From assembly GCF_009758015.1 (NCBI RefSeq), contig NZ_WSEL01000009.1, forward strand, positions 558,001 to 622,000: 64,000 nt of DNA, read 5' to 3'. A program made the translations under genes and the position numbers. The notes under the pieces were generated by a model. That model was given only the letters and a program-made list of their open reading frames with translations, was not told where the DNA came from and did no database searches. The number at the start of each line of letters is the position of its first letter. The first letter of the stretch is position 1. Positions 37,361-56,339 of this stretch are shown in pieces. The DNA comes from Ramlibacter pinisoli. GTDB lineage: Bacteria > Pseudomonadota > Gammaproteobacteria > Burkholderiales > Burkholderiaceae_C.

Positions 37361-38712
37361 TGGCGGAGTTGCGGACCATCGCCCGCCACGCGGGGACGGT
37401 GCTCGTGGGCCAGCTCGCCACCATGGCGTTCGGCGTCGCCGACACCATGATCGCCGGCCGCTACCGCACCGACGCCCTGGCGGCCCTCTCGGTCGGCTCG
37501 GCGGTCTACATCAGCATCTTCGTGGCGCTGACCGGCCTGGTACAGGCGCAACTGCCGGCTTGGGCGCAACTGCGCGGAGCCGGCCGCGAGGCGGAGGTCG
37601 GCCGCTCCGTGCGGCAGGCGCTCTATCTGTGCCTGGTGGCCTCGGCCGCGGGCATCGCTGTCCTGCGCTGGCCGGGCCCGCTGCTACAGTGGGCCCAGGT
37701 GCCCCCGTCGCTCGAAGGCGAGGTGCAGGCCTACCTGGGCATCCTGGCTCTCGCCTTGCCCGCCGCCCTGCTGTTCCGGGGTTACTCCACGCTCAACCAG
37801 GCCCTGGGCAAGCCGGTCCTGGTGACCTGGCTGCAGACCGGTGCGCTGGCGGTGAAGGTGCCGCTGTCGATCTGGCTGACCTTCGGCGGCGCCGGCGTTC
37901 CCGCCCTGGGCCTGGCCGGTTGCGCCTGGGCCACCGTCATCGTCCAGTACCTGCTGCTGGTGCTGGCGATCGCCACCATCCGCTTTGGATCGTTCTATGC
38001 GCCCTACCGGATCTGGCAGCGGATCGAGCCGCCCGATGGGGCCACCCTGCGCGGATTCGCCCGGCTGGGCGTGCCCACTGCCCTGGCGGTCATGGTGGAG
38101 GTCACGTCCTTCACGCTGATGGCCCTGTTCATTGCCCGCCTGGGCAGCCAGGCCTCGGCCAGCCACCAGATAGCGGCCAACCTCACGGCGGTGCTGTACA
38201 TGATGCCGCTCTCGCTGGGCCTGGCGGTGAGCGCGCGGGTGAGCTACTGGCTCGGCAGCGGCGACGAGCGCCAGGCGCGCCAGGCCCTGCGCCTGGGCTA
38301 CAAGCTGGGCCTCGCGCTGGCAGCCTCCAGCGCGGTGCTGGTGCTGCTCGGACGCCACGCCATCGCCCACCTCTATGCCGGCGACAAGCCCGAGGTGGTC
38401 GCAGCCGCGGGCAGCCTCCTGCTCTGGGGGGCGGCCTACCACGTGGCCGACGCCCTGCAAGCCCTCAGCTTCTTCGTGCTGCGCAGCTACGGCGTCGCCA
38501 ATCGGCCGCTGGTCGTCTATTGCGTGCTGCTCTGGGGCGTCGGCTTGGGAGGCGGCTACGTGCTGGCCTACCAAGGCCTAGGAACCCTGGCTCCCATGCA
38601 GTCGCCGGCGGCGTTCTGGGCCGCGGGAGCCTTCGCGCTGGCGGCGACCGCGGCCACCTTGTTCATCCTGCTGTGGCGGGTTGTCCGCTCCCGGCGTCCT
38701 TCGTTCGCTTGA
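37360..38712 (+). CDS. MATE family efflux transporter
   Basis: 450 residues with about twelve TM helices in two homologous halves ('GQLATMAFGVADTMIAGR' in the first, 'AVMVEVTSFTLMALFIARLG' in the second). NorM/MdtK-like transporters export cationic drugs using Na+ or H+. It is coupled to the upstream membrane protein by a TGATG overlap. The last 50 bp (38663-38712) overlap the 3' end of phoR on the other strand. Confidence 0.88.
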   Translation: MAELRTIARHAGTVLVGQLATMAFGVADTMIAGRYRTDALAALSVGSAVYISIFVALTGLVQAQLPAWAQLRGAGREAEVGRSVRQALYLCLVASAAGIAVLRWPGPLLQWAQVPPSLEGEVQAYLGILALALPAALLFRGYSTLNQALGKPVLVTWLQTGALAVKVPLSIWLTFGGAGVPALGLAGCAWATVIVQYLLLVLAIATIRFGSFYAPYRIWQRIEPPDGATLRGFARLGVPTALAVMVEVTSFTLMALFIARLGSQASASHQIAANLTAVLYMMPLSLGLAVSARVSYWLGSGDERQARQALRLGYKLGLALAASSAVLVLLGRHAIAHLYAGDKPEVVAAAGSLLLWGAAYHVADALQALSFFVLRSYGVANRPLVVYCVLLWGVGLGGGYVLAYQGLGTLAPMQSPAAFWAAGAFALAATAATLFILLWRVVRSRRPSFA

Positions 38713-40015
38713 GCGGGCGCATCCTCCCGGCCGGGAAAGTGATGGCAAAGCAGGACCCAACGCCCGGCGTGCTGTCGATGCGCAACTGCGCACCGTGGCG
38801 CTGCACCACGTGCTTGACGATGGCCATGCCGAGGCCGGTGCCGCCGGTTTCGCGCGAACGGCTGCGGTCGACGCGATAGAACCGCTCGGTCAGCCGCGGC
38901 AGGTGCTCGGCCGCGATGCCTGGACCGGTGTCGCGCACGCTGAACTCGCCCCGGCCATCCGGCAACACGCGCCAGGCAACGGCCACCTCGCCACCCGACG
39001 GGGTATAGCGCACGGCATTGCTCACCAGGTTGGACATCGCGCTGAGCCATTCGGATGGCGCGCCCGACACCTCGTGGTGCGCGGTGGTGTCGAAGTGCAG
39101 GTCCAGCGACTTGTCCAGCACCGACGCCAGCGAGAGCGCCTCCTGCTCGCACTGGGCCAGGAAGGACGCGACCGGCGTCCACTCACCGGCCCCTGGCGCC
39201 GGGCTGCCTTCGAGCCGCGAGAGCGTGAGCAGGTCGCTCACCAGGGTCTGCATGCGCGAGCCCTGCTGGGACATCAATCCCAGGTAGCGCGTGCGGTCGG
39301 CCTCGCCGAGGGGCAGCGTCTGCAGCGTCTCGATGAAACCCGCCATCACCGTCAACGGCGTGCGGATCTCGTGCGAGACGTTGGCCACGAAGTCGCGCCG
39401 CATGGTCTCGGCCTGCTCGAGGGCCGTGACGTCGCGCGACAGCAGCAGCTTGCGGCCCTGCCCGTACGGGTGCAGCTGGACCGACACTCGCGCCGGCACC
39501 GCGGAAGAGCCGGCGCGTCCGGCGATGACCACGTCGCGGCTGAAGTCCCCCTGCGCGCCATAGGCCGTGAAGGCCGGATCGCGCAGCAGGTTCCCGATCA
39601 ACTGTTGCAGGTCGCGCTCCGGGTCGATGCCCAGGTGGCCGGCCGCCGTCTCGTTCACCCACTCGATGCGCCCCTCGGGGTCGAGCAGCACCACGCCATT
39701 GGGCGAGGCCTGGATCGCCGCCAGGAATTCGCGCAGGCGCGCTTCCGCGTCCTCGACCTCGCGCTGGCGCCCACGCAGGACGCGCCGCATGCGCTCGGCG
39801 ATCTCGCCCCACAGTCCGGACGTCGGTGGCGGCTCCTCCGCCGCGCCGCGGCGCAACCATTCGAGCACGAGCGAGCCCCGCACCACGTCGATCCCGAACC
39901 AGACCAGGGCACCCAGGAACACGCCCACGGCCGCCCCCCGGTCCGCGGCCGCCAGCCAGCCGGCCAGCGCACCGGCCGCCAGCAGGAGGAAGAAACTGCC
40001 TACGCGCCAAGCCAT
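38663..40015 (-). CDS. phoR: Phosphate regulon sensor histidine kinase PhoR
   Basis: 450 residues. Two N-terminal hydrophobic helices (about 5-23 and 29-46) with almost no periplasmic loop, a PAS domain at about 95-200, H215 in 'NVSHEIRTPL', N box 'NLVSNAVRY', G1 'DTGPGIA' and G2 'GGTGLGMAI'. This is the PhoR architecture: it senses phosphate through the Pst/PhoU complex rather than by its own periplasmic domain. It is the last gene of the pst-pho operon, 26 bp after phoB. A basic tail of about 18 residues lies in the region overlapping the MATE gene. Confidence 0.95.
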   Translation of the reverse strand: MAWRVGSFFLLLAAGALAGWLAAADRGAAVGVFLGALVWFGIDVVRGSLVLEWLRRGAAEEPPPTSGLWGEIAERMRRVLRGRQREVEDAEARLREFLAAIQASPNGVVLLDPEGRIEWVNETAAGHLGIDPERDLQQLIGNLLRDPAFTAYGAQGDFSRDVVIAGRAGSSAVPARVSVQLHPYGQGRKLLLSRDVTALEQAETMRRDFVANVSHEIRTPLTVMAGFIETLQTLPLGEADRTRYLGLMSQQGSRMQTLVSDLLTLSRLEGSPAPGAGEWTPVASFLAQCEQEALSLASVLDKSLDLHFDTTAHHEVSGAPSEWLSAMSNLVSNAVRYTPSGGEVAVAWRVLPDGRGEFSVRDTGPGIAAEHLPRLTERFYRVDRSRSRETGGTGLGMAIVKHVVQRHGAQLRIDSTPGVGSCFAITFPAGRMRPLKRTKDAGSGQPATAG

Positions 40016-40041
40016 GGAAGTGAGGAGACCGTTGCCCGGCC

Positions 40042-40752
40042 TCAGCCGGCGCGCACTGCTGCCTGCGGTTGCGCCGTCAGCCGGTAGCCGGCCCCCCGCA
40101 CGGTCTCGACCATGGCACCGGCCTCGCCCAGCGACTCGCGCAGCCGCTTGACGTGCACGTCGACCGTGCGCTCCTCGATGAAGACGTGGTCGCCCCACAC
40201 CTTGTCGAGCAGCTGCGAGCGGCTGTGCACGCGTTCCGGATGCTTCATCAGGTAATTGAGCAGCTTGAATTCCGTCGGGCCGACCTTCACCGGCTGGCCG
40301 CGGAAGCTGACTCGGTGCGTCGCCGTGTCGAGGACGAGCTCGCCGATGGTGACGGTCTCCGTCGCCTGCTCCGGCGCCCGGCGGCGCAGGACGGCGCGGA
40401 TGCGCGCCAGCAGCTCCTGGGTGGAGAACGGCTTGGTGATGTAGTCGTCGGCACCGGCATCCAGGCCCGCCACCTTGTCCGGCTCGTCGCCGCGCGCGGT
40501 CAGCATGAGGATGGGAACGGCCTTGGTGCGGGCGGTGCCTCGCCACTTGCGCGCCAGGGCCAGGCCGCTCTGGCCGGGCAGCATCCAGTCGAGCAGGATG
40601 ACATCGGGCAGGACGGCATCGAGCTCGCGCTGCGCGGCATCGCCATCCTCGGCCCAGATGGGCTGGAAGCCGTTGTGGCGCAGGTTCACCGCCACCAGTT
40701 CGGCGATGGACGGCTCGTCTTCGACGAGCAGGACGCGGGGCATGCTTTTCAT
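40042..40752 (-). CDS. phoB: Phosphate regulon response regulator PhoB
   Basis: 236 residues. Receiver domain with acidic pocket E11/D12, phospho-acceptor D55 in 'VILLDWMLPG' and the conserved 'KPFST' lysine; then a winged-helix OmpR-type domain ('GPTEFKLLNYLMKHPERVHSR', recognition helix 'RTVDVHVKRLRESL'). It binds Pho boxes and activates pst, and probably ppk and the lipid operon in this window. The start MKSMPRVLLVEDEP (40752) fits homologues better than the MPR three codons later. Only 4 bp separate it from phoU. Confidence 0.96.
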   Translation of the reverse strand: MKSMPRVLLVEDEPSIAELVAVNLRHNGFQPIWAEDGDAAQRELDAVLPDVILLDWMLPGQSGLALARKWRGTARTKAVPILMLTARGDEPDKVAGLDAGADDYITKPFSTQELLARIRAVLRRRAPEQATETVTIGELVLDTATHRVSFRGQPVKVGPTEFKLLNYLMKHPERVHSRSQLLDKVWGDHVFIEERTVDVHVKRLRESLGEAGAMVETVRGAGYRLTAQPQAAVRAG

Positions 40753-40756
40753 CGGT

Positions 40757-41458
40757 TCACCGCAGCGCGGACTCGATCTGCTCCATCGACGAATGCCGCA
40801 CGTCGGCACCCTTGACGACATAGATGATGAACTCGGCGATGTTCTTCGCGTGGTCGCCGATGCGCTCGAGCGCCTTGGCCAGGAACAGCAGGTCGAGACT
40901 GGAGGAAATGGTGCGCGGGTCTTCCATCATGTAGGTGATGAGCTTGCGCACGAAGCCGTCGAACTCACGGTCGATGAGGTCGTCCTCCTTGAGGATCGCC
41001 AGGGCCGTGGCCGTGTCCAGCCGCGCGAAGGCGTCGAGGGCCTTGCGCAGCAGCCCGGAGGCCAGGTCGGCAGCCACGCGCAGTTCGGAGGCCGGCAGCG
41101 TGCGGGTCGCACCGCTGTCGATGATGGACTTGACCATGCGGGCGATCTTGGCGGCCTCGTCACCTACCCGCTCGAGGTTGGCCGTGGTCTTGGAGATCGC
41201 CATCAGCAGCCGCAGGTCGCGCGCGGTCGGCTGGCGCCGCGCGATGATGGACGACAGCTCGCGGTCGATGTCCACCTCCATGGCATTGACGCGCTGCTCG
41301 GTCTCGAGCACCTGCGTGGCCGCATCGGCATTGAACTGCGACAGCGCATAGACCGCCTGGCGGATCTGCGATTCGACGAGCCCGCCGAGCTCCATGACGC
41401 GCGAAGACACGCCATTGAGTTCGCTGTCGAACTGGGTGGAAAGGTGCTTGTCGGGCAT
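40757..41458 (-). CDS. phoU: Phosphate transport system accessory protein PhoU
   Basis: 233 residues forming two repeated three-helix bundles with the metal-binding signatures 'ERVGDEAAKIA' and 'ERIGDHAKNIAE'. PhoU links the PstB ATPase to PhoR and keeps PhoB off when phosphate is plentiful. It sits between pstB (19 bp away) and phoB (4 bp), in the operon order pstS-C-A-B-phoU-phoB-phoR. Confidence 0.96.
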   Translation of the reverse strand: MPDKHLSTQFDSELNGVSSRVMELGGLVESQIRQAVYALSQFNADAATQVLETEQRVNAMEVDIDRELSSIIARRQPTARDLRLLMAISKTTANLERVGDEAAKIARMVKSIIDSGATRTLPASELRVAADLASGLLRKALDAFARLDTATALAILKEDDLIDREFDGFVRKLITYMMEDPRTISSSLDLLFLAKALERIGDHAKNIAEFIIYVVKGADVRHSSMEQIESALR

Positions 41459-41477
41459 GGCGGTCCTCCAGGGGCGG

Positions 41478-42251
<774 letters not shown>

Positions 42252-42260
42252 GGGGACTCG

Positions 42261-43148
42261 TCAGGTCTTGTGGCGGGTGAGCACGCGCGCCAGGATGTTC
42301 AGCGCCAGCACCGCCATGGTGATGAGGAAGACGCCGGCCCAGGCGAGCTGCTGCCAGTTCTCGTAGGGGCTCATGGCGAACTTGAAGATGGTGACCGGCA
42401 GGCTGGCCATCGGCTCGGACAGGTTGGAGGTCCAGAACTGGTTGTTCAGCGCCGTGAAGAGCAGCGGCGCGGTTTCGCCCGAGATGCGCGCCACCGCCAG
42501 CAGCACCCCGGTGACCACTCCGGCGCGCGCCGCCCGCAGCGTGATGCTCAGGATGACCTTCCACTTGGGTGCACCCAGCGCGTAGGCCGCCTCGCGCAGG
42601 CCAGCCGGCACCAGCATCAGCATGTTTTCCGTGGTGCGGATGACCACCGGCACCACGATCAGCGCCAGCGACAGGGCGCCGGCCCAGCCGGAGAAGTGCC
42701 GGAAGCGCGAGACGACCACGGCGTAGATGAACAGGCCGATGACGATGGACGGCGCCGACAGCAGGATGTCGTTGACGAATCGCGTCGTCGTCCCCAGCAC
42801 GCCCTTGCTGTCGTACTCCGCCAGGTAGATGCCGGCCATGATGCCCACGGGCGTGGCCACGAACGTGGCCAGTCCCACCATCAGGCAGGAGCCGTAGATG
42901 GCGTTGGCGATGCCGCCGGCCTCGTTGGGCGGCGGCGTCATCTCGGTCAGGGTCGACCAGGCGAGCCCGCCGATGCCGAGGCGGAAGGTCTCGAACAGGA
43001 TCCACACCAGCCAGAACACGCCGAACGCCATGGCGGCCAGCGAGAGCGCCAGCGCCACCTGGTTCACGCGCTTGCGCGCCGCATAGCGCCGCTCGCGGGC
43101 ACGCGCGGCATCGGCCTTGCGCAGAAGGGTCTCGCCGGTGCCGATCAC
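42261..43148 (-). CDS. pstA: Phosphate ABC transporter permease PstA
   Basis: 295 residues with six TM helices and the permease loop '[20 protein letters not shown]'. I start it at GTG 43148, which overlaps the pstC stop as GTGA; longer in-frame readings run into pstC. The N-terminal basic stretch ([17 protein letters not shown]) is cytoplasmic. It pairs with PstC to form the phosphate channel. Confidence 0.94.
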
Positions 43149-44110
43149 GATTTCGCCCCTTCGGCCCTGCGCAGGCGCGACAGCAGCAGCTTGGACAGCG
43201 CCAGCACCACGAAGGTGATGAAGAACAGCACCAGCCCGAGGTAGATCAGCGAGGCCTGGTGCAGGCCGCTGGCCGCCTCGGCGAACTCGTTGGCCAGCGC
43301 CGAGGTGATGCTGTTGGCCGGCTGGAACAGCGAGAGCGAGTCGAGCTGGTTGAAGTTGCCGATGACGAAGGTCACGGCCATGGTCTCGCCCAGCGCCCGG
43401 CCCAGGCCGAGCATGATGCCGCCGACCACGCCCGCCTTCGTGTACGGCAACACGACGCGCGAGACCACCTCCCAGGTGGTCGAGCCGAGGGCGTAGGCCG
43501 ACTCCTTGAGCATGGGCGGGGTGACGTCGAAGACGTCCCGCATCACCGAGGCGATGAACGGGATGATCATGATGGCCAGGATGATCCCGGCCGAGAGGAT
43601 GCCGATGCCGACCGGCGGACCGGACACGAGCGCGCCCAGCACCGGCACGCCGGCGAACAGGGCCTGCAGCGGCTGCTGCACGAACGTGGCCAGGATGGGG
43701 CCGAAGACCAGCAGGCCCCACATGCCGTACACGATGGAGGGCACCGCTGCCAGCAGTTCGATGGCGGTTCCGAGCGGGCGCTTGAGCCAGGCGGGCGACA
43801 GCTCGGTGAGGAACAGCGCGATGCCGAAGCTGACGGGCACGGCGATCACCAGCGCGATGAGCGAGGTGGCCAGGGTGCCGTAGATCATCACCAGGCCGCC
43901 GTACTCGCCGCCCACCGGGTCCCAAACGCTGCTGGTGATGAACCCGATGCCGTACTTCCCGATCGCCGGCCAGGCACCCGCCAGCAGCGACAGCAGGATG
44001 CCGGCCAGCAGTGCGAGCGTGAGGATGGCCGAACCGCGGGCCGCCCACCCGAACAGCCGGTCGCCCCAGGGCGCGGCCCGGCGGGGGCGGCTGGCGGGAG
44101 GAAGGCTCAT
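43145..44110 (-). CDS. pstC: Phosphate ABC transporter permease PstC
   Basis: 321 residues with six TM helices and permease loop '[20 protein letters not shown]'. ATG 44110 is preceded by GGAGGG. It is separated from pstS by 129 bp containing a hairpin. That fits the classical arrangement in which the abundant binding protein is followed by attenuated expression of the membrane genes. Confidence 0.95.
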
Positions 44111-44214
44111 TCGGCGCCCTCCCTTCCGGGCTGGCACGGCGCCAGGGACGGCGAAGGGGGCCTCATGGGCCGGGAGTGTAGAGGACACCGGAACTGTTCT
44201 CGTCTGTGGAACGG

Positions 44215-44232
44215 GGGCGGCCGCAGCCGCCC
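44215..44232 (-). other. Hairpin in the pstS-pstC spacer
   Basis: GGGCGGC (44215-44221) pairs with GCCGCCC (44226-44232) around CGCA, 8 bp after the pstS stop. Without a U-tract it may protect the pstS 3' end or partly terminate, giving more PstS than PstCAB. Confidence 0.5.
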
Positions 44233-44239
44233 ACCTCTC

Positions 44240-45277
44240 TTACTTGAAAGCGATGGCCTTGCCGCTGGCGTCCTTCAGCTCGGTCGCCCACAGCTTCTCG
44301 ACCTGGGTCTTCACGGCCGCGGGCATGGGCACGTAGTCGAGGTCGTCGGCCGTCTTGTCGCCGCTCTTGTAGGCCCACTCGAAGAATTTGATGGTGGCAG
44401 CGGCCTGCGCCGGCTTGTCCTGCACCTTGTGCATCAGGATGAAGGTGGCGCCGGTGATGGGCCAGCTCTCCGCGCCCGGCTGGTTGGTCAGGATCTGGTA
44501 GAAGCTCTTGGACCAGTCGGCCCCGGCGGCGGCGGCCTTGAAAGCCTTGTCTTCCGGCGCCACGAACTGGCCGGCCGCGTTCTGCATCAGTGCGTAGGCC
44601 ATCTTGTTCTGCTTGACGTACGCGTACTCGACGTAGCCGATCGCGTTGGGCAGCCGGCCGACGAAAGCGGCCACACCCTCGTTGCCCTTGCCGCCCGCGC
44701 CGGTCGGCCAGTTGACGGCGGTGCCCTCGCCCACCTTGGACTTCCACTCCGCGTTCGCCTTCGACAGGTAGTTGGTGAAGATGAAGCTGGTGCCGGAGCC
44801 GTCGGCGCGCCGCACCGGGGCGATGGCGGCGTCGGGCAGGCTCAGCGACGGGTTCAGGGCCTTGATGGCCGGGTCGCTCCACTTGGTGATCTTGCCCAGG
44901 TAGATGTCGCCCAGCACCTGGCCGTTCAGGCGCAGCTGGCCCGGGCCGATGCCCTTGATGTTGACCACGGGGATGACGCCGCCGATGACGGTCGGGAACT
45001 GGACCTGGTTCTTCTTGGCCAGTTCCTCGTCCTTCAGGGGCGCATCGGACGCGCCGAAGTCGACGGTCTTGGCGTCTATCTGGCGGATGCCGGCACCGGA
45101 CCCCACGGACTGGTAGTTGATGCGAATGCCGGTCGCCTTGTTGTAGTCAGCCGCCCACTTGGCATACAGCGGCGCCGGGAAGCTTGCACCGGCGCCCGTC
45201 ACTTCCTGGGCCGCCGCGAGGCCCGCGAACGTCAGGGAGACGAGGCCGAGGGTGGCCACACGGAAAGTCGAAGTCAT
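44240..45277 (-). CDS. pstS: Phosphate-binding protein PstS
   Basis: 345 residues. ATG 45277 follows AGGAA and starts a Sec signal peptide (residues 1-23, ending AAAQ). Phosphate-contact loops are visible: 'GAGASFPAPLYAKW' at the mature N-terminus, 'YQSVGSGAGIRQ' and 'RRADGSGTSFIFTNYL'. It captures inorganic phosphate in the periplasm for PstCAB. A Pho box with a matching -10 lies upstream, so it should be strongly induced by phosphate starvation. Confidence 0.97.
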   Translation of the reverse strand: MTSTFRVATLGLVSLTFAGLAAAQEVTGAGASFPAPLYAKWAADYNKATGIRINYQSVGSGAGIRQIDAKTVDFGASDAPLKDEELAKKNQVQFPTVIGGVIPVVNIKGIGPGQLRLNGQVLGDIYLGKITKWSDPAIKALNPSLSLPDAAIAPVRRADGSGTSFIFTNYLSKANAEWKSKVGEGTAVNWPTGAGGKGNEGVAAFVGRLPNAIGYVEYAYVKQNKMAYALMQNAAGQFVAPEDKAFKAAAAGADWSKSFYQILTNQPGAESWPITGATFILMHKVQDKPAQAAATIKFFEWAYKSGDKTADDLDYVPMPAAVKTQVEKLWATELKDASGKAIAFK

Positions 45278-45309: not shown

Positions 45310-45343
45310 ACTCTAAGAAGCTTCCGTGACAACGGGATGACAT
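45310..45343 (-). promoter_or_regulatory. PhoB box and -10 of the pst operon
   Basis: On the minus strand ATGTCAT-CCCG-TTGTCAC (45326-45343) is a 7-4-7 direct repeat matching the PhoB consensus. TAGAGT at 45310-45315 lies 10 nt downstream as a -10 element, the standard Pho promoter geometry. Confidence 0.8.
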
Positions 45344-45365: not shown

Positions 45366-45394
45366 TCGTCACGGATCTGTCACGGCAGGTCACT
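45366..45394 (+). promoter_or_regulatory. Candidate PhoB sites for the fasciclin gene
   Basis: On the plus strand TCGTCAC-GGAT-CTGTCAC (45366-45383) is a 7-4-7 repeat, followed by a third GTCAC at 45389-45393. GTCAC recurs at 45368, 45379 and 45389 (steps of 11 and 10 bp). A weak -10 (TACGCT, 45394-45399) follows. It lies 23 bp from the pst box and faces the other way. Confidence 0.6.
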
Positions 45395-47116: not shown

Positions 47117-48598
47117 ATGGACAACGGAACCCTCCTGGCCGGCGTCGACCTAGGCTCGAACAGTTTCAGGCTCGAGATCGGTCGGCACGACCACGGGCAG
47201 GTCCACCGCACCGAATACCTGAAGGAGACGGTGCGGTTGGGCGCCGGGCTCGACGACTCGCGCAACCTCACCGTCGAAGCCATGCGGCGTGGCTGGGAAT
47301 GCCTGGCGCGATTCGGAGAACGGCTGGCCGGTTTCCGGCGCAGCCAGGTCCGGGCCGTCGCAACTCAGACCCTGCGCGAAGCCCGCAATCGCGATGATTT
47401 CCTCGGCCGGGCCCACGACATCCTCGGGTTCCCGATCGAAGTGATCTCCGGCCGCGAGGAGGCGCGCCTGATCTACCAGGGCGTCGCCCACCTCCTGCCG
47501 CAGTCGGACGAGCGGCGGCTGGTGGTGGATATCGGCGGCCGGTCCACCGAGCTGATCCTGGGTCAGCAATTCGAGGCGCGGGTGACGGAGAGCTATCGCG
47601 TCGGCAGCGTCGCGTGGTCGCTGCGCTACTTTCCGGACGGCACCCTGTCTGCCGCTGCCTTCGAGCGAGCCCGGGTGGCGGCCCAGGCCGTGCTCGAGGA
47701 CGCCACGGTCCGCTACGGCCGCCGCCAATGGGACGTGGCGTACGGATCGTCAGGCACGATCGGGGCGGTCGGCGACATCCTGCTGGCGGCCGGCCGGCCG
47801 GCGGTGTCGCGCGAGAGCCTGTCGTGGCTGCAGGGGCAACTGATCGCGGCCAAGTCGGTCGATCGGGTCCGGCTGGAAGGGCTGAAGGACGACCGGCGGC
47901 CGGTGATCGGTGGCGGACTGTCCGTCCTGCAGGCTGTGTTCGACCAGTTGGACATCCAGGAGCTGCTGCCGGCCGAGGGCGCGCTGCGTCAGGGCGTCGT
48001 GTTCGACCTCCTGGATCGCGAGCATGTCGGAACCGACGTCCGATCGGTCACCGTGCAGAGGCTGGCTACCAAGTTCGGCGTCGACACCCCCCAGGCCACC
48101 CGCGTGGGCAAGGTCGCGCGCCAGCTCCTGCGGCAGTTGCGCGGGGCCGACGACTCCCCACAGGCGTTGGCGCGCCACGAGCGCAAGCTGGGCTGGGCCG
48201 CCCTGCTGCACGAGATCGGCAGCCACATCTCGCACAGCGATGCGCACAAGCACGGCGCGTACATCCTCGACCACGCCGATGCACCCGGTTTTGCGCAACC
48301 CGAACTGCACCGCCTGGGCCTGCTGGTCCTGGGCCACCGCGGCAAGCTGCGCAAGCTCGACGCCGACTTTTCCGACGTGGTGTTCGTGCACCAGCTGCTG
48401 TGCCTGCGGCTGGCCGTGATCCTGTGCCACGCCAGGCGCGATCCCAACCTCTCCGGCCTGCAGTTGCGGGCCGGCAACCAGCAGTTCACGCTGTCCATCC
48501 CGGCCGACTGGGCGCGCGCCTACCCGCAGTCCGCGCATCTCCTGCGCGAGGAAGCGGTCGCGTGGCAGAAGACACCCTGGACTCTCGCCACCGGTTGA
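47117..48598 (+). CDS. ppx: Exopolyphosphatase
   Basis: 493 residues, Ppx/GppA length. The ASKHA phosphate-binding motifs are present: 'AGVDLGSNSFRLEI', 'RAVATQTLREARN', 'VISGREEARLIYQG', 'VVDIGGRSTELILG' and 'GSSGTIGA'. The C-terminal HD-like helical domain includes 'LLHEIGSHISHSDAHKH'. The enzyme degrades polyphosphate (or acts on pppGpp) and opposes Ppk, encoded 1 kb away on the other strand. The start at 47117 agrees with the family. Confidence 0.93.
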   Translation: MDNGTLLAGVDLGSNSFRLEIGRHDHGQVHRTEYLKETVRLGAGLDDSRNLTVEAMRRGWECLARFGERLAGFRRSQVRAVATQTLREARNRDDFLGRAHDILGFPIEVISGREEARLIYQGVAHLLPQSDERRLVVDIGGRSTELILGQQFEARVTESYRVGSVAWSLRYFPDGTLSAAAFERARVAAQAVLEDATVRYGRRQWDVAYGSSGTIGAVGDILLAAGRPAVSRESLSWLQGQLIAAKSVDRVRLEGLKDDRRPVIGGGLSVLQAVFDQLDIQELLPAEGALRQGVVFDLLDREHVGTDVRSVTVQRLATKFGVDTPQATRVGKVARQLLRQLRGADDSPQALARHERKLGWAALLHEIGSHISHSDAHKHGAYILDHADAPGFAQPELHRLGLLVLGHRGKLRKLDADFSDVVFVHQLLCLRLAVILCHARRDPNLSGLQLRAGNQQFTLSIPADWARAYPQSAHLLREEAVAWQKTPWTLATG

Positions 48599-49091: not shown

Positions 49092-49553
49092 TCAGGTCGC
49101 GTCGGGCGACTGTACGGCCACCACCACGGTCTGCTGGTGGCCGTCCCGCTCGCGGGTACGCAACCACCACGCCGTGCCCTTGCGCACCTGGCAGGTGCCG
49201 CTGTCCATGCCCAGCAGCTGCGCCACGACCTCGCCCAGCACCGGCTGGTGGCCGACCACGACCACCGGCTGGCGCGCCGACGGCCACTGCGCCGCCTCCA
49301 GGATGCCGGGCACGTCCGCAGCCGGCCCGAGTTCCGGGCGCACCTTGAACTTGCGGCCCAGCGCCCTGGCCGTCTGGTCGCAGCGCCGCGCCGGGCTGCA
49401 CAGGATGCGGGCGCCCTCGGGCAGCAGCCGATCGAGCCAGGCCGCCACGCGGGCCGCCTGCTTTTCGCCACGGGCGGTCAGCGCCCGCTCCAGGTCCTCG
49501 AGGCCCTCGCGCTGGTCTTCGGCCTCCGCGTGGCGCCACAAAATCAGGTCCAT
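49092..49553 (-). CDS. sixA: Phosphohistidine phosphatase SixA
   Basis: 153 residues. The histidine-phosphatase opening 'LILWRHAEAED' carries the catalytic RHA, with 'CSPARRCDQTA' and a second histidine in 'VVVGHQPVL'. SixA dephosphorylates phosphohistidine proteins (for example PTS-Ntr NPr). The start at 49553 overlaps the ppk stop by 10 bp, so the two are translationally coupled. It converges on the RHH-like gene with only 7 bp between stops. Confidence 0.9.
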   Translation of the reverse strand: MDLILWRHAEAEDQREGLEDLERALTARGEKQAARVAAWLDRLLPEGARILCSPARRCDQTARALGRKFKVRPELGPAADVPGILEAAQWPSARQPVVVVGHQPVLGEVVAQLLGMDSGTCQVRKGTAWWLRTRERDGHQQTVVVAVQSPDAT

Positions 49554-51643
49554 GCCGGCTCCTGTGGAATGGCGCGCACCCCATGGCGGGCCATGAGGGC
49601 TTGCTGCGCGCCGTGCCCTTTCGACCCCCGCCGCGAGCGCACGGGCTCGTAGCGGCCATCCGACTGCAGTTCCCAGGCGTCCCGATCGTCGTGCAGGTAG
49701 GCCACCAGGCACTCGTCGACGATGCGCTGGCGCAGCACCGGGTCGGTGACCGGCCAGGCCAGTTCGATCCGGCGCAGCATGTTCCGGTTCATCCAGTCGG
49801 CGCTGGACAGGAACAGCTCCTCCTCGCTTCCTGCCCGCAGGTAGAAGACGCGCGAATGCTCTAGGAAGCGGCCGACGACGGAGCGCACGCGGATGTTGTC
49901 GGTCCAGCCGGGCAGCCCCGGGGGCAGCATGCACGCGCCGCGGATGATGAGGTCGATGTGCGCGCCGTGGCGGCCCGCCCGCACGAGCGCGTGCATCAGC
50001 TGCTCGTCGGTCAGTGCATTCATCTTGAGCACGATCCGCGCCGGCAGCCCGCGCGCCGCCGCTTCGCCCAGCACGTCGATCTTCTCGATCAGGCGCCGGT
50101 GCAGGTGGAACGGCGCCATCAGCACGCAGTTGAGCCGCGGGAGCCGCGTCTGGCTGGCCAGGTGCACGAAGATCGCCTCCACGTCGGCGGTCAGCTTGGG
50201 ATCGGCGGTCAGGTAGCTGAGGTCGGTGTACAGCCGGGCCGTGGACGGGTTGTAATTGCCCGTGGACAGGTGGGCGTAGCGCACCAGCGCACGCCCTTCC
50301 CGCCGGGTGACCAGCAGCATCTTGGCGTGCGTCTTGAGGCCGACCACGCCATAGACCACCTGCGCCCCGATCGACTCGAGCTGCTCGGCCCAGTTGATGT
50401 TGGCCTCCTCGTCGAAGCGCGCCTTCAGCTCCACGACGGCCATCACCTCCTTGCCGCGCCGCACCGCTTCGCGCAGAAGGTCCATCAGGGCCGACTCGTT
50501 GCCGGTGCGGTAGATGGTCTGCTTGATGGCCAGCACGTCCGGGTCGTCGACGGCCTCGCGCAGGAACGCCAGCACGCCGTCGAAGCTCTCGAACGGCTGG
50601 TGGATGAGGACGTCGCCACGGCGCAGCTGGTCGACGATGGGCTCGTTCACGTTCAACCCGGCCGGGAACGACGCCGTGTAGCGCGGGAACTTCAGCTGCG
50701 GCGCGTCCACCAGGTCGATCAGCTGCTGCAGGCGCACCAGGTTCACGGGACCGGACACACGGTACAGCGCCACCGGCGGCAGCGCGAACTGCTGCAGCAG
50801 GAAATGGGCGAGGAACTCCGAGCAGCCCGACGACACTTCCACCCGCACAGCCTGGCCGTAGTGCCGGTGCTGGAGGCCCACCCGCAACGCGGTGCGCAGG
50901 TTGCGCACGTCGTCCTCGTCCACCGCGAGGTCGGAATGCCGCGTCACCCGGAACTGCGAGAACTGCCCCACCTCGCGGCCCGGGAACAGGTCCTGCAGGT
51001 GGGCCCGGATCACGCTCGACAGCGAGACGAACAGGGTCTTGCCGCCCGACACCTTGGCCGGCATGCGGATCAGCCGGGGCAGGACGCGGGGAACCTTGAC
51101 GATGGCGATCTCGTTCTCGCGGCCGAACGCGTCCTTGCCGCCCAGCCGGACGATGAAATTGAGCGACTTGTTGGCGATCTGGGGAAACGGGTGCGCGGGA
51201 TCCAGGCCTACCGGCACCAGCAACGGCCGCACCTGGCGCTCGAAGTAGTCGTCGACCCAGCGCTTCTGGGGTGCTGTGCGCTCGCCGTGCGACACCAGCT
51301 CGATGCCCTGGCGGGCGAACGCCGGCATCAGCTCATCGTTGAAGAGCGCGTACTGCCGCTCCACCAACCGGTGGGCCGCGACCGACAGCGCCTCGAAGCT
51401 CGCTACCGTGTAGAGCCCTTTTCTCTCGCCGGCGAGCGCCGCCGTCAGGTGCGGCGCGGCACGCACTTCGAAGAACTCATCGAGGTTGGACGACACGATG
51501 CACAGGTAACGCAGCCGCTCGAGCAGCGGCACGTCGTCGCGATGGGCCCAGTCCAGCACGCGCTCGTTGAAGGCAAGAATGCAGTGGTCGCGATCGAGCC
51601 ATGGAAGGCTCGAGATGTCTGCGCTGGTCTGGGGCGATGTCAT
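49544..51643 (-). CDS. ppk1: Polyphosphate kinase 1
   Basis: 699 residues, full-length PPK1 with N, head, C1 and C2 domains in order. 'LRYLCIVSSNLDEFFEVR' marks the N domain, 'VGLKTHAKMLLVTRREG' carries the phospho-accepting histidine, and 'VVGRFLEHSRVFYL' the second conserved histidine. It makes polyphosphate from ATP reversibly. No strong ribosome binding site precedes ATG 51643, but two PhoB boxes do, so transcription should rise under phosphate starvation. SixA is translated from the same message. Confidence 0.95.
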   Translation of the reverse strand: MTSPQTSADISSLPWLDRDHCILAFNERVLDWAHRDDVPLLERLRYLCIVSSNLDEFFEVRAAPHLTAALAGERKGLYTVASFEALSVAAHRLVERQYALFNDELMPAFARQGIELVSHGERTAPQKRWVDDYFERQVRPLLVPVGLDPAHPFPQIANKSLNFIVRLGGKDAFGRENEIAIVKVPRVLPRLIRMPAKVSGGKTLFVSLSSVIRAHLQDLFPGREVGQFSQFRVTRHSDLAVDEDDVRNLRTALRVGLQHRHYGQAVRVEVSSGCSEFLAHFLLQQFALPPVALYRVSGPVNLVRLQQLIDLVDAPQLKFPRYTASFPAGLNVNEPIVDQLRRGDVLIHQPFESFDGVLAFLREAVDDPDVLAIKQTIYRTGNESALMDLLREAVRRGKEVMAVVELKARFDEEANINWAEQLESIGAQVVYGVVGLKTHAKMLLVTRREGRALVRYAHLSTGNYNPSTARLYTDLSYLTADPKLTADVEAIFVHLASQTRLPRLNCVLMAPFHLHRRLIEKIDVLGEAAARGLPARIVLKMNALTDEQLMHALVRAGRHGAHIDLIIRGACMLPPGLPGWTDNIRVRSVVGRFLEHSRVFYLRAGSEEELFLSSADWMNRNMLRRIELAWPVTDPVLRQRIVDECLVAYLHDDRDAWELQSDGRYEPVRSRRGSKGHGAQQALMARHGVRAIPQEPAWT

Positions 51644-51676: not shown

Positions 51677-52768
51677 TCATCGGGAGGATGACAGAGTTGT
51701 GACAGCACCGGTGGGCCGCGCGTCGCCGACGGGGTGCCGCGCCGGCACGAGGAAGTCGGCGAACAGGCGGCTGGCGTGCGCCCAGCTGAAATCCAACGCC
51801 CGTTCGCGGGCTTCGACCCGCGGGATCGACAGCGCCGACCGGATCGCGGTGCCCAGGTCTTCGTGCATGGTTCCGCCCAGGCTGCGGCCACCGTCGGGAT
51901 GCGGGCGCCCCAACACCTCCAGGGGACCGTCGACCGGGTAGGCGGCCACCGGCGTCCCCGCGGCCATGGCCTCGACCATGACCAACCCGAACGTGTCGGC
52001 GTGGCTGGGAAACACGAGCACATCGGCTGCCGCATACAAGCGCGCGAGCTCGGGCCGGGACAGCAGGCCGATCCAGCGCACATGGGGATGGCGGGCCTTG
52101 AGTGGGGCCTCGACCGGCCCGACGCCACACACCACCTTGCTCCCCGGCAGGTCGGTCTCGAGGAACGCCTGGATGTTCTTCTCGTACGAGACCCGGCCGA
52201 CGAACAGCGCGATCGGCCTCGGCAGGTCCCGCAGCAGGTCGTGCGGCAGCGGCTGGGCGCTGAAGCCGAACAGCCCGGTGTCCACGCCGTGCGTCCAGGC
52301 CCGCAGGTTGCGAAAGCCCCGCCGTTCGAGCATGGCCAGCACGCTCCGCGTCGGGACCATGACACCCGACGAGGGACGGTGGAAATGGCGAAACAGCGCG
52401 TAGCCCCACCCCACCGGCACCATCGCGGCAGCATGCAGGATCTCGGGAAACTTGGTGTGGAAGGCCGTCGTGAAGGCGAGTCGGCGCCGCAGGCAATAGC
52501 GGCGGCCGGCCCAGCCCAGTGGCCCTTCCGTCGCCAGGTGGATCGCATCCGGCTGGAAAGCATCCAGCTGCGCGGCGAGCTGGCGCCGGGGCGCGACGGC
52601 GAGGTCGATCCCCGGGTAACCCGGGCACGGGCGGGTGCGGAAGTCGCCCGGCTGCACCACCAGCAGGTCGTGCCCCGCTGCCGTGAGTTCGCGCACCAGT
52701 TCCACCAGCGTGGTCACGACGCCGTTGACCTGGGGCATCCAGGCGTCGGTGACGAGGGCGATCTTCAT
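51677..52768 (-). CDS. GT4 glycosyltransferase, Agt-like (glycolipid synthesis)
   Basis: 363 residues with GT-B fold. N-terminal 'IALVTDAWMPQVNGVVTT' is the glycine-rich acceptor-side loop; 'FVGRVSYEKNIQAFLE' and 'VFPSHADTFGLVMVEAMA' (the EX7E donor motif, 'DTFGLVMVE') are GT4 hallmarks. Closest in character to the Agt glycosyltransferases that add sugars to diacylglycerol under phosphate starvation; mannosyltransferases share the motifs. ATG 52768 overlaps the plcP-like stop as ATGA. Gene order olsB - plcP-like - this gene argues for lipid glycosylation. Confidence 0.75.
   Translation of the reverse strand: MKIALVTDAWMPQVNGVVTTLVELVRELTAAGHDLLVVQPGDFRTRPCPGYPGIDLAVAPRRQLAAQLDAFQPDAIHLATEGPLGWAGRRYCLRRRLAFTTAFHTKFPEILHAAAMVPVGWGYALFRHFHRPSSGVMVPTRSVLAMLERRGFRNLRAWTHGVDTGLFGFSAQPLPHDLLRDLPRPIALFVGRVSYEKNIQAFLETDLPGSKVVCGVGPVEAPLKARHPHVRWIGLLSRPELARLYAAADVLVFPSHADTFGLVMVEAMAAGTPVAAYPVDGPLEVLGRPHPDGGRSLGGTMHEDLGTAIRSALSIPRVEARERALDFSWAHASRLFADFLVPARHPVGDARPTGAVTTLSSSR
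51688..51705 (-). promoter_or_regulatory. PhoB box, ppk-distal, inside the 3' end of the glycosyltransferase gene
   Basis: Minus strand CTGTCACAACTCTGTCAT: near-perfect PhoB direct repeat (CTGTCAC-AACT-CTGTCAT). It spans the codons for the last Val-Thr-Thr-Leu-Ser of the upstream glycosyltransferase, 44 bp before the ppk start. Confidence 0.8.
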
Positions 52769-53625
52769 GCAAGCTCCTTGTGGGCGATCCGCGGGGAGGC
52801 GACCGGGTGGTCGACGGCGCCCCACTCCACCAGTTCCAGGCGGCCGTCGAGGTGTTCGACCAACGCGGTCCGGCTCTCCACCCAGTCGCCGTCGTTGCAA
52901 TAGAGCACGCCGTCGATCTCGCGCATCTCGGCGCGGTGGATATGCCCGCAGACCACGCCCTGGTGGCCGCGCCTGCGCGCTTCGTGCGCCACCGCCTGCT
53001 CGAACCCGGTGACGTAGTTCAGTGCCCGCTTGACCCGGTGCTTGAGGTAGCCCGACAACGACCAGTACGGCAGCCCGAACCAGCCCCTGGCCCTGTTCAG
53101 GTGGCGATTGAGCCGCAACGTGAACTCGTAGAGCGTGTCGCCGATGTGGGCAAGCCACTTGGCGCACTGCACCACGCCGTCGAAGGCATCGCCATGCAGC
53201 ACCCACAACCGGCGGCCATCCGCCGTCACGTGCACGGCTTCCTCGGCCACCTCGATGCCGCCGAACGCGTGGCCGGCGAACTGGCGCGCGAACTCGTCGT
53301 GGTTGCCCGGCACGTAGACCACCCGGCAGCCCTTGCGCGCACGGCGCAGGACCTTCTGCACGACGTCGTTGTGGGCCTGCGGCCAGAACCAGCGCCGGCG
53401 CAGCTGCCAGCCGTCGACGATGTCGCCCACCAGGTACAGCTGTTCGCTGGGGTGGCGCTTGAGGAAGTCCAGCAGGGCGGCCGCCTGGCAGCCGGCCGTG
53501 CCCAGATGGATGTCGGACACGAACACCGTCCGGTACGGCGGCCGGACCGGGTCCTCGGACTCCGTCGCGGTCCCGCCGGCGACGCCCGCGGCCACGAAGT
53601 CGACGGTGTCGAAGGCGGTGCGCAC
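52765..53625 (-). CDS. plcP: Metallophosphoesterase, PlcP-like phospholipase C (LpxH-related)
   Basis: 286 residues from GTG 53625, with GAGGAG just upstream. Calcineurin-type metal motifs: D38-x-H40 ('FVSDIHLG'), G67-D68-x2-D71 ('LVGDIVDGW'), G107-N-H-D ('VPGNHDE') and 'CGHIHRAE'. The 'DGWQLRRRWFWPQAHNDVV' segment differs from LpxH (which has an acidic 'GDLFEAW') and resembles the PlcP group. That group removes phosphate head groups from phospholipids during phosphate starvation, giving diacylglycerol. Generic annotation would call it UDP-2,3-diacylglucosamine hydrolase. It lies between olsB and an Agt-like transferase. Confidence 0.72.
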   Translation of the reverse strand: MRTAFDTVDFVAAGVAGGTATESEDPVRPPYRTVFVSDIHLGTAGCQAAALLDFLKRHPSEQLYLVGDIVDGWQLRRRWFWPQAHNDVVQKVLRRARKGCRVVYVPGNHDEFARQFAGHAFGGIEVAEEAVHVTADGRRLWVLHGDAFDGVVQCAKWLAHIGDTLYEFTLRLNRHLNRARGWFGLPYWSLSGYLKHRVKRALNYVTGFEQAVAHEARRRGHQGVVCGHIHRAEMREIDGVLYCNDGDWVESRTALVEHLDGRLELVEWGAVDHPVASPRIAHKELA

Positions 53626-53635
53626 GGCGGGCTCC

Positions 53636-54463
53636 TCAGTGGCCCAGGAAGTGCTTGCGGTAGCGTGGCGGCAGGTCCGCGATGCGCATCAGCATCGGCA
53701 GGTCGGCGCTGTTGAAGTCGGGGTCCCAGGCGGGCGGCCCCAGCACCTTCGCACCCAGCCGCAGGTATCCCTTGATGAGGGCGGGCGGCTCGACGTCCAG
53801 CGTGCCGTCGAGCTGCTCGATCGGCAGCGCGAGCCGCGGACGCACCTGCAGCTCGATGGGCGCAAGGTGCGTCGTCTGCCGCAGCTGGTTCCAGATGCTC
53901 GCGGCGGCGTGCCCGCTGACCACGCCGTTGTGCAGCATCGGGATGCTGGCGCAGCCGACCATGGTGTCCAGCTGGTTGCGCACCATGAACTCCGCCAGCG
54001 CACCCCACAACGCGAGGATGACGCCGCCGTGCCGGTGGTCCGGATGCACGCAGCTGCGCCCCAACTCCACCATCCGCGTGCGCAGCCCGCGCAGCCGGGT
54101 GAGGTCGAACTCGGTGTCGCTGTATGTGCTGCCGACCCGCCGTGCCTGGGCCGGGGTCAGCACCCGGTACGTGCCGACCACTTCGCCGGTGGCTCGATCG
54201 CGCACCAGCAGGTGCTCGCAGAAATCGTCGAACAGGTCGATGTCATGGCCGGGGAGCGCCGTGTCCAGGCGCGCCCCCATTTCGTCCGCGAAGATGCGAT
54301 ACCTCAGGCGCTGCGCCTGCCGGACCTCGTCCTCGTGCTGCGCCCAGCTGACCAGAACCGCGCCGCGCTCCGCAGCAGGAGAGCTCGAACCAGGTCCTGG
54401 AAGCGACCCCCGTGGCAAGGCGATCGGCGACAGCGGCAAGGTGGGATTCGGCAGGTCGTTCAT
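53636..54463 (-). CDS. olsB: L-ornithine N-alpha-acyltransferase-like protein OlsB
   Basis: 275 residues. GNAT-fold acyltransferase with 'QRLRYRIFADEMGA', 'VVGTYRVL' and 'MVELGRSCVHPDHR' (the acyl-ACP/pantetheine-binding region), and the OlsB-type end 'LIKGYLRLGAKVLG'. OlsB moves a 3-hydroxyacyl chain from ACP to ornithine, the first step of ornithine lipids; OlsA is not in this window. ATG 54463 follows CAGGAG. A Pho box lies 65 bp upstream, and the plcP-like gene follows 10 bp downstream. Other long-chain N-acyltransferases remain possible. Confidence 0.8.
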   Translation of the reverse strand: MNDLPNPTLPLSPIALPRGSLPGPGSSSPAAERGAVLVSWAQHEDEVRQAQRLRYRIFADEMGARLDTALPGHDIDLFDDFCEHLLVRDRATGEVVGTYRVLTPAQARRVGSTYSDTEFDLTRLRGLRTRMVELGRSCVHPDHRHGGVILALWGALAEFMVRNQLDTMVGCASIPMLHNGVVSGHAAASIWNQLRQTTHLAPIELQVRPRLALPIEQLDGTLDVEPPALIKGYLRLGAKVLGPPAWDPDFNSADLPMLMRIADLPPRYRKHFLGH

Positions 54464-54527
54464 GCGGGGCTCCTGTCTGGATGCCCGACAGTGTGCGAAC
54501 GGCCGGTGACTCGACCGTTGCAATTGG

Positions 54528-54545
54528 ATGGCAGTTCGATGACCG
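54528..54545 (-). promoter_or_regulatory. PhoB box upstream of olsB
   Basis: Minus strand CGGTCAT-CGAA-CTGCCAT, a 7-4-7 repeat with one mismatch to CTGTCAT in each half, in the 113-bp gap before olsB. The expected -10 position (54512-54517, CGGTCG) is poor. Confidence 0.55.
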
Positions 54546-54576: not shown

Positions 54577-55338
54577 TCACCGCGGCGCGTGGCGGCCCTG
54601 CGCGCCCCACCACTGCGCAACCTGCTCGATCACCCACTGCGGATCGTCGAGCGGCAGGTCATGTCCGGCCCACGGGTGCTCGCGCAGTGGCACCTGCCAA
54701 CCGCGAGCCAATCCGCGCGAACAGGCCGGGTCGACCAGCCGGTCGCCCGCCGAAGCGAGGACCAGCAGTGGCACCGGGGGTGGCGAAGCAGGGGCCCGGT
54801 AGCGGGCCGCCGCCCACAGCTGGCGCCAAGCTGTCCCGGCGCTCACCGGGCGGCTGCGCGCGATCGCGATCCAGCGGGCCACCTCCTGTGCGTGCTGCTG
54901 CGGACGCGCGCTCGTGATCGACAGAATCCGTTGCTCGCGCATGGCGGTGTCCATGCCGGCCAGCATTCGGACCACGGTCGGGTAGTGCACGGGTCGCAGC
55001 CGGCGCCAGAAGGGGCTATGACCGCCGGCGCTCGTGTTCACGAGCACGCAGCCAGCGACCTGGCCCGGAGCCTGTCGGCACCACTCGATGGCGACCATGG
55101 CCCCGAGCGACAGCGCCAGCAACACCGTGGGACCGTCGTGCGGCGGCAGTGCCTGCCGGCAGTGCTGGGCCAGGGCCGCGACGTGCCAGGGAGCCGTCTC
55201 GCCACGACGGGCTCCGCTGCCCGGCAGGTCGATCGCCGCGACGGCGCCGCCGGTCGCCGCGGCCAGTTCCGGGCCGAAGCTGCCCCAGTGCGCCGCCTCG
55301 CGCGTCAACCCGCGCAACAGGACCCAGCGCACGGTCAC
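54577..55338 (-). CDS. Alpha/beta hydrolase
   Basis: About 253 residues, start GTG 55338 overlapping the upstream stop (GTGA). The fold is clear: 'LPGSGAR' after strand 4, nucleophile elbow 'LALSLGAM' (Ser within A-x-S-x-G, the first Gly replaced by Ala), 'LVLASAGDRLVD' for the acid and 'HPWAGHDLPL' for the histidine. The esterase or lipase substrate is unknown. It is coupled to the M14 peptidase gene and lies just upstream of the Pho-boxed olsB operon. Confidence 0.8.
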   Translation of the reverse strand: MTVRWVLLRGLTREAAHWGSFGPELAAATGGAVAAIDLPGSGARRGETAPWHVAALAQHCRQALPPHDGPTVLLALSLGAMVAIEWCRQAPGQVAGCVLVNTSAGGHSPFWRRLRPVHYPTVVRMLAGMDTAMREQRILSITSARPQQHAQEVARWIAIARSRPVSAGTAWRQLWAAARYRAPASPPPVPLLVLASAGDRLVDPACSRGLARGWQVPLREHPWAGHDLPLDDPQWVIEQVAQWWGAQGRHAPR

Positions 55339-56339
55339 CGGTACCACCGCTCGACGGCGGCCTGGCGGTGGCGCTCGCGATCATCCCCAGGTGGCAGCCA
55401 CTCACGCGCCGCCAGCCCGGCGCGGACGAGGAAGTCGAACAGCGGAAAGTGTCGGCGCAACACACGTTGTCGCCGATGCAGCAGCACGGGATTGAACAGC
55501 CCGGCGCGCGACAGCAGCTGTCGGGGATTCTTCTTGACCCACAGCCACGATCCCATCTCCAGCGTCATCGGCAGGAACACGCCGGGGCCATCGCTCGATT
55601 GGAGGTAGAGATGGTCCCAGAGGTCGCCGTGCGCCAGGTACTGCCGGCTCTGCGGCTCCACGACATAGGGATGGTTGGGATGCGACTCCTCGAATGCGAG
55701 CTGGAGCGCGTGCATCTCCGCCAGGTGCGCGATGGCGCGCCGGCTGTGCGCGAACGGGAACCACAGGCGATCGCGCAGGCCGAAACCGGAGTGGCAGTCC
55801 AGCACCAGGCTGCAGGGCCGCGCCTGCAGTTCACGCGCCACGCAGGCACACAGCGCTGCGCTCTCGGGCTCCATCGGGGCGCCCAGCCGGCCGCGGTACC
55901 AGGGCAGGCCGGCGCTCGTGCGCTGCCCGCCCACCAGGGGCGGCACGGGATCAAGCGCATCGACGGGCGCATTGCGCATCAGGTCGACGCCGGCGGCGTT
56001 CGCCCGGGTCCCCCGCAGCATGCCCTCGGGGTTGACGATGGGCATGAACACGAGCCGGACCTGCTCCAGCTGCCGGTGCAGCGTCGCGTCCCATCGCAAC
56101 CGCGCCACCAGGCTGTGCAGCCAGGCGATCACGACCTGCGAGCCGATGCGCTCCAGGCCATGGACACCGCCGAAGAAGCCCACCGCCGGGACGTCCGGCG
56201 CCGGATTGCCGAGCGCCACGGTGTAGACCGGCAGTGCACGGGGCCCCGCCGAGGCTGTATGCCTCACCTCCAGGTGGGAGCCGCCGATATCGAGCACGCG
56301 CTGCAGGTCGTCGAGTTCGGGCAAGGACGTCGCGGTCAC
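55335..56339 (-). CDS. M14 family zinc carboxypeptidase / succinylglutamate desuccinylase-like
   Basis: 334 residues from GTG 56339. The zinc ligands of the M14 family are visible: H-x2-E in 'GGVHGLERIG' and His in 'LDCHSGFG'. 'NPEGMLRGTRANAAGVDLMR' is the substrate-anchoring Arg/Asn loop and 'LEMGSW' the catalytic Glu. It should cleave a C-terminal residue or an amide from a small substrate in the cytoplasm (no signal peptide). It is coupled to the alpha/beta hydrolase by a 4-bp overlap. Weak ribosome binding site. Confidence 0.8.
   Translation of the reverse strand: MTATSLPELDDLQRVLDIGGSHLEVRHTASAGPRALPVYTVALGNPAPDVPAVGFFGGVHGLERIGSQVVIAWLHSLVARLRWDATLHRQLEQVRLVFMPIVNPEGMLRGTRANAAGVDLMRNAPVDALDPVPPLVGGQRTSAGLPWYRGRLGAPMEPESAALCACVARELQARPCSLVLDCHSGFGLRDRLWFPFAHSRRAIAHLAEMHALQLAFEESHPNHPYVVEPQSRQYLAHGDLWDHLYLQSSDGPGVFLPMTLEMGSWLWVKKNPRQLLSRAGLFNPVLLHRRQRVLRRHFPLFDFLVRAGLAAREWLPPGDDRERHRQAAVERWYR

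Follow-up and report, generated by a model that had tools for sequence, protein, structure and literature searches.

In a 64,000-nucleotide window of the Ramlibacter pinisoli genome (5.5 Mb, 11 contigs, 99.98% complete), we find three adjacent minus-strand genes, in the order olsB-plcP-agt, that very probably form a PhoB-controlled lipid-remodelling operon set in a phosphate-economy island. The computed basis of this reading is the family-level identity of the genes, their order, their recurrence in relatives and a Pho-box pattern, scored against the consensus CTGTCAY-N4-CTGTCAY. The chemistry of PlcP, Agt and OlsBA and their control by PhoB are already published, and in the window known parts are arranged in a new way. 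The novelty lies in the recurrent physical linkage of the two phosphorus-free lipid branches to genes for phosphate uptake and polyphosphate; our search of the open-access literature, outside which most subscription papers and preprints lie, found no description of such a link between olsB and plcP-agt. The operon and the repeat in front of it are laid out as follows:

54528..54545, minus strand: Pho-box-like 7-4-7 direct repeat CGGTCAT-CGAA-CTGCCAT, 2 mismatches, 65-82 bp before the olsB-like start.
53636..54463, minus strand: olsB-like N-acyltransferase gene (PF13444), ATG start, a predicted ornithine N-acyltransferase from profile models.
52765..53625, minus strand: plcP-like metallophosphoesterase gene, GTG start, a predicted diacylglycerol-releasing phospholipase C from profiles, tree and motifs.
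51677..52768, minus strand: agt1-like GT4 glycosyltransferase gene, ATG start, a predicted diacylglycerol glycosyltransferase from a tree.

These coordinates bear out the close coupling that an earlier note on this DNA had described: 10 bp separate the olsB-like gene from the esterase gene, the esterase and GT4 genes overlap by 4 bp (ATGA), and the repeat does stand before the first gene.

The window esterase is not LpxH but PlcP-type, with a predicted phospholipase C activity. On the LpxH model TIGR01854 it scores 34 bits against a cut-off of 190.35, while a separate LpxH in the same genome, the genuine lpxH for which the earlier note had proposed to look, scores 192.6 bits on that model and 224 bits on a second LpxH model with a cut-off of 134. 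The two proteins are 24% identical, and the window esterase is 54% identical to the PlcP orthologue of P. alcaligenes. In a maximum-likelihood tree of 60 proteins, the 51 esterases stand fully apart from the 9 LpxH with support of 100/100, and the split is recovered in 200/200 bootstrap trees. The esterase side includes P. alcaligenes and other Pseudomonas-type PlcP orthologues; the tree placement that the earlier note had put forward sets the window protein outside LpxH and with PlcP orthologues. The best 80 of 525 relatives in the named-genome scan are Pseudomonas or Pseudomonadaceae entries, with no P. aeruginosa title among them. The assayed PlcP proteins of P. aeruginosa and S. meliloti lie outside the tree, with orthologues from other species representing them; PA3219 of P. 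aeruginosa is an experimentally supported PlcP, whose deletion mutant is described as having no detectable monoglucosyldiacylglycerol (MGDG; PMC8528852). Motifs draw the same line, with GNHD present in 52/52 esterases and 0/10 LpxH and GN[RH]DF in 0/52 and 10/10, respectively. A GDIVDGW-type motif occurs in 44/52 esterases and 0/10 LpxH, and the window protein carries GDIVDGW, as the earlier note had read from its PlcP-like DIVDGW; the less clean GD[LF]F[ED] (11/52 esterases, 10/10 LpxH) is absent from it.

Among the best 120 of 8000 matches, where the relatives that are named below family rank are mostly Ramlibacter (family Comamonadaceae, order Burkholderiales), the source names of the esterases, if present, are UDP-2,3-diacylglucosamine diphosphatase or pyrophosphatase LpxH, and the window esterase does match LpxH models weakly. 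Its sole PDB sequence match at E 0.01 is likewise an LpxH (E 0.0043). Taken at face value, such names would make the esterase a second LpxH for lipid A synthesis, its neighbours unrelated transferases and the LpxH annotation right. We consider this scarcely credible, given the separate LpxH over the cut-off in the same genome, the full split of the two groups in the tree and in both GN motifs, and the repeated pairing of esterase-type genes with agt-like genes (43 of the 47 genomes having both, see below). As a side observation on PlcP, the plcP of P. citronellolis in its assembly (L082 4001-4828) has one in-frame stop near the 3' end.

The window GT4 adjoins plcP and groups with 46 sequences of the Agt1 type, of which 43 lie next to plcP, to give a set of 47 rows from which 10 Agt2-type sequences are separate; the split has a value of 99 in the Shimodaira-Hasegawa-like approximate likelihood ratio test (SH-aLRT), from a quick tree without bootstrap. 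It is 46-49% identical to the enzymes of Agt1 type and 33% identical to those of Agt2 type in P. citronellolis and P. alcaligenes, labels that for the Pseudomonas rows come from position, rank and identity rather than from record names. No second GT4 of the Agt kind is found in the window genome at E 1e-15. In P. aeruginosa the product of Agt1 is MGDG and that of Agt2 is glucuronic acid diacylglycerol (GADG; PMC8528852). We predict that the window GT4 is a diacylglycerol glycosyltransferase. The sugar donor cannot safely be read from the sequence and the sugar of the product cannot safely be predicted, because the Agt of SAR11 is reported to make both glucosyl- and glucuronosyl-diacylglycerol (PMC4796936).

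Elsewhere, an Agt2-type GT4 shares the plcP locus while no Agt1-type gene lies beside plcP in L060, L074, L075, L206, L209 and L211 by the tree, and in L210 an Agt2-type GT4 is assigned to the plcP locus by identity alone. It is as if Agt1- and Agt2-type GT4s were interchangeable in plcP loci. Neither type is found in the stretch fetched around plcP in L059 and L061-L063.

For the first gene, the earlier note's assignment to an OlsB-type N-acyltransferase stands as far as the best models go, but the homology lies well below the curated cut-offs: the best NCBIfam models are two OlsB families, at 158.6 and 145.9 bits, far below cut-offs of 350 and 320. We therefore file the protein as OlsB-like, with the role of ornithine N-acyltransferase predicted. 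It is the only match of its kind in the genome, and two Pseudomonas homologues, 42-43% identical to it, each lie beside an olsA homologue. An olsA homologue is present in 6/40 fetched plcP- or olsB-centred loci (one being the query source), in 3 of the 9 olsB loci inspected from a further 30 fetched with 1.5-kb flanks, and in 2/2 Pseudomonas olsB loci, and none is found in one Rhizobiaceae-like olsB locus or beside the window gene. The genome has three PF01553 acyltransferases, of which L005, unlinked to the operon, is alone proposed as an OlsA candidate. Its best models are OlsA, at 142.6 bits and far under the cut-off of 300. For each of the 9 olsA homologues drawn from loci of olsB or plcP, L005 is the best match among the three, though L005 was one of two queries used to locate those homologues, which favours it. 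With this unlinked candidate, an ornithine-lipid route in the window genome is plausible.

It is unlikely, in our estimate, that the acyltransferase instead makes another N-acyl amino acid lipid, such as a glutamine or glycine lipid, with the remaining scheme unchanged. The low OlsB scores would fit that alternative, as would the existence of a glutamine lipid pathway in Rhodobacteraceae (PMC6298996). However, OlsB models score best and none for GlsB matches the window acyltransferase at E 0.001, its homologues adjoin olsA homologues (two Pseudomonas genomes among them), and ornithine lipid is what the olsBA operon produces in P. aeruginosa (PMC9804370). A Polynucleobacter-like OlsB homologue matches a GlsB model weakly, at 28 bits.

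The operon adjoins ppk and lies close to pst, as had been noted earlier, and the features on this side of it are the following:

51688..51705, minus strand: perfect Pho box CTGTCACAACTCTGTCAT, inside the 3' end of the GT4 gene, before ppk1.
49544..51643, minus strand: ppk1, polyphosphate kinase (NF003918, 1059 bits against a cut-off of 691).
49092..49553, minus strand: sixA, phosphohistidine phosphatase (76.6 bits against a cut-off of 74.5).
47117..48598, plus strand: Ppx/GppA-family exopolyphosphatase-like gene (408.9, 377.8 and 295.4 bits, all under cut-offs).
45366-45383, plus strand: Pho-box-like site beside pstS, in the opposite direction, 2 mismatches.
45326..45343, minus strand: Pho-box-like repeat before pstS, 2 mismatches.
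38663..45277, minus strand: pstS-pstC-pstA-pstB-phoU-phoB-phoR, from profile models.

The start of ppk1 is 33 bp past the end of the GT4 gene, and sixA overlaps the end of ppk1 by 10 bp. In a profile search of the neighbours, pstSCAB, phoU, phoB, phoR and sixA each exceed at least one curated cut-off. The plus-strand site at 45366-45383 faces a fasciclin-like lipoprotein gene (45434-45913, named from its translation).

Recurrence was analyzed across 200 genomes of the order, the window genome included, where the order is the group drawn by the search tool around the window genome. A plcP-like gene occurs in 92 genomes (E 1e-50), an olsB-like gene in 138 (E 1e-20) and an agt1-like gene in 48 (E 1e-50), with olsB-like and plcP-like genes both present in 77. 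Where plcP and agt are both present, they lie at most 300 bp apart in 43/47 genomes. The distance between olsB and plcP is at most 3 kb in 14/77 genomes (the window's own included) and at most 10 kb in 20/77, compared with chance expectations of 0.45 and 1.3 when all genomes are taken as 1.3 Mb, the size of the smallest genome with a plcP-like gene. The 14 linked genomes span 8 families, with orders that include olsB-plcP-agt, plcP-agt-olsB and plcP-agt-dgkA-olsB, among others, and gene order within a family is shared by descent. Linkage of olsB and plcP is thus frequent, not a rule.

The full order olsB-plcP-agt-ppk-sixA is kept in two same-family relatives, L057 and L058. Genes of the ppk, ppx, pst or pho kind lie within ∼10 kb in 7/20 loci picked from plcP matches with their neighbours unseen beforehand, and in 14/20 loci of a second set, 15 of which had been picked for an olsB-plcP distance of at most 10 kb. 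Certain clusters also contain dgkA and olsA, or adjoin pst, phoB, ppk or ppx; dgkA-like genes are present in 11/40 loci, and 4/4 of those tested match PF01219. In two Polynucleobacter-like genomes, so labelled from their size and gene content rather than from a record name, plcP, agt, dgkA and olsB form one run with olsA divergent. The earlier claims that both lipid branches sit in one operon and that this operon stands by ppk and pst therefore hold in the window and extend to relatives.

Control by PhoB is predicted from the Pho boxes. Within the window, sites with up to 3 mismatches are not in excess (15 found, 14.2 expected), whereas sites with up to 2 mismatches number 4 against 0.97 expected, a count reached in 3/100 shuffles; the weight thus falls on this stricter limit and on the comparison across loci. 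Of these four, one precedes olsB, one precedes ppk1 and two stand beside pstS, one per strand; the perfect box before ppk1 was missing from the earlier note. Boxes with up to 3 mismatches are found upstream of 15/26 olsB homologues (window included), 15/15 in the forward direction, and upstream of 22/42 plcP, 7/35 agt-type, 12/14 ppx and 11/12 pstS homologues, while at up to 2 mismatches they precede 10/11 ppk and 3/6 olsA homologues. By comparison, 229/3000 random segments of the same loci (8%) hold a box of up to 3 mismatches, control upstream regions (pstC, pstB, glmM, ftsH) hold Pho boxes in 0/37 cases, and phoB homologues are preceded by one in 0/8. The enrichment upstream of olsB gives a Fisher p of 9e-11 with the window and 6.5e-10 without it, values that overstate the case since the loci share ancestry and some were selected for lying near phosphate genes. 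An upstream box is thus kept in relatives, though not in every one. Since ppk1 has its own Pho box, it should respond to the same signal as the operon. In accordance with such control, PlcP, DagK, OlsA and OlsB of P. putida BIRD-1 are reported as PHO-dependent (PMC5082522), and putative Pho boxes are reported before olsB in 21/43 genomes of Burkholderia sensu lato (PMC7814305).

The same counts bear on whether the lipid genes are phosphate-controlled at all, or whether the Pho-like repeat is a chance match and the position by ppk and pst inherited synteny. The lack of excess at 3 mismatches would suit the latter, as would the two mismatches in the box before olsB, a box that is not evident in L057. 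Against it stand the enrichment before olsB homologues, uniformly in the forward direction, and the empty control regions. In addition, gene orders differ between families, so that the clustering is not explained by simple inheritance. We hold this alternative to be very unlikely.

In the operon reading that we prefer, low phosphate would cause PhoB to bind the box before olsB. PlcP would strip the phosphate-bearing headgroup from phospholipids and leave diacylglycerol. Agt would glycosylate this diacylglycerol, yielding a glycolipid, and OlsB, together with OlsA encoded elsewhere, would make ornithine lipid. The released headgroup phosphate would go back to the cell pool; that lipid phosphate passes directly into polyphosphate is something that we infer from gene position only.

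Several observations weigh against this reading, in addition to the scores of the acyltransferase and of L005 far under their cut-offs. The box before olsB departs from the consensus at two positions, the close relative L057 has no box of up to 3 mismatches before olsB, and some boxes in the counts for relatives may instead be those of phosphate genes nearby (pst, ppk). In 57/77 genomes olsB and plcP are not within 10 kb on one contig, although draft assemblies may hide some cases. For two Ramlibacter species, the major polar lipids are reported as phosphatidylethanolamine, phosphatidylglycerol and diphosphatidylglycerol; one of the two also has a minor unidentified aminophospholipid, and the excerpted text of the source names no glycolipid or ornithine lipid for either (PMC9705899), the phosphate level of the medium being left out of our comparison. 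Finally, in genome G019 (L196 8402-10220) olsB-like and agt1-like genes are adjacent while plcP is elsewhere in the genome.

This last arrangement would be accounted for if the GT4 of olsB-linked clusters acted on ornithine lipid, besides or instead of diacylglycerol, to yield a glycosylated phosphorus-free aminolipid. The same activity would account for a GT4 branch common to olsB-linked clusters, since the GT4s of the window, of G019 and of two other olsB-linked loci form a fully supported branch (4 rows). We nonetheless regard it as most unlikely. The olsB-agt pair of G019 is found beside ppk, sixA, ppx and pst.

The olsB-plcP-agt operon shares parts with several known systems. The earlier note had referred to PhoB-controlled PlcP-Agt of alphaproteobacteria; this holds for that group, but the system is not confined to it, being described also in Pseudomonas (PMC8528852) and in type I and type II methanotrophs (PMC9239053). 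The plcP-agt order of the window is that of the alphaproteobacterial operons, SAR11 included, and of Methylosinus trichosporium, which are associated with glycolipids under phosphate limitation (PMC4796936, PMC9239053). In contrast to the window, no olsB, ppk or pst is mentioned next to plcP in the genomic-context section of PMC4796936. In P. aeruginosa PA3219-PA3218 and their Pseudomonas orthologues, plcP is followed by a GT4 gene with a Pho box upstream (PMC8528852), and the window esterase and GT4 resemble such orthologues at the identities given above (54% and 46-49%). The differences are that the window genome has a single such GT4 (E 1e-15) and that olsB heads the operon, whereas two named Pseudomonas genomes have olsB on a contig other than that of plcP-agt1, plus an Agt2-type enzyme.

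With the OlsBA pathway of Sinorhizobium and Burkholderia the window has in common an OlsB-family enzyme and putative Pho boxes before olsB (PMC7814305). In contrast to that pathway, the window olsB is joined to plcP-agt and apart from olsA. The P. putida BIRD-1 set of PlcP, DagK, OlsA and OlsB places the same enzymes under a single regulator, and its counterparts meet in the Polynucleobacter-like clusters; in P. putida BIRD-1 it is a regulon recognized by proteomics, and here it is known as a gene cluster (PMC5082522).

If the operon reading is true, a fair proportion of the Burkholderiales, including small Polynucleobacter-like genomes, would have the genes for taking up phosphate, storing it and replacing phospholipids next to one another. 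Genes now labelled LpxH and generic transferases would need re-annotation. There would also be concrete lipid predictions for a group for which we found no low-phosphate lipid description in the open-access literature, and an easy way to test whether phosphate from membranes is reused for polyphosphate.

Just upstream of the olsB-like gene lie two overlapping minus-strand genes, for an alpha/beta hydrolase (54577-55347) and an M14 peptidase (55335-56339), which we considered as operon members and left out. The M14 gene is present in 22/200 genomes, of which only 3 (window genome counted) have it at most 10 kb from olsB or plcP, for which reason both genes were excluded, no genome-wide search having been made for the hydrolase. 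Homologues of the two also accompany plcP in L063 and, in L213, stand between genes of olsA and olsB type.

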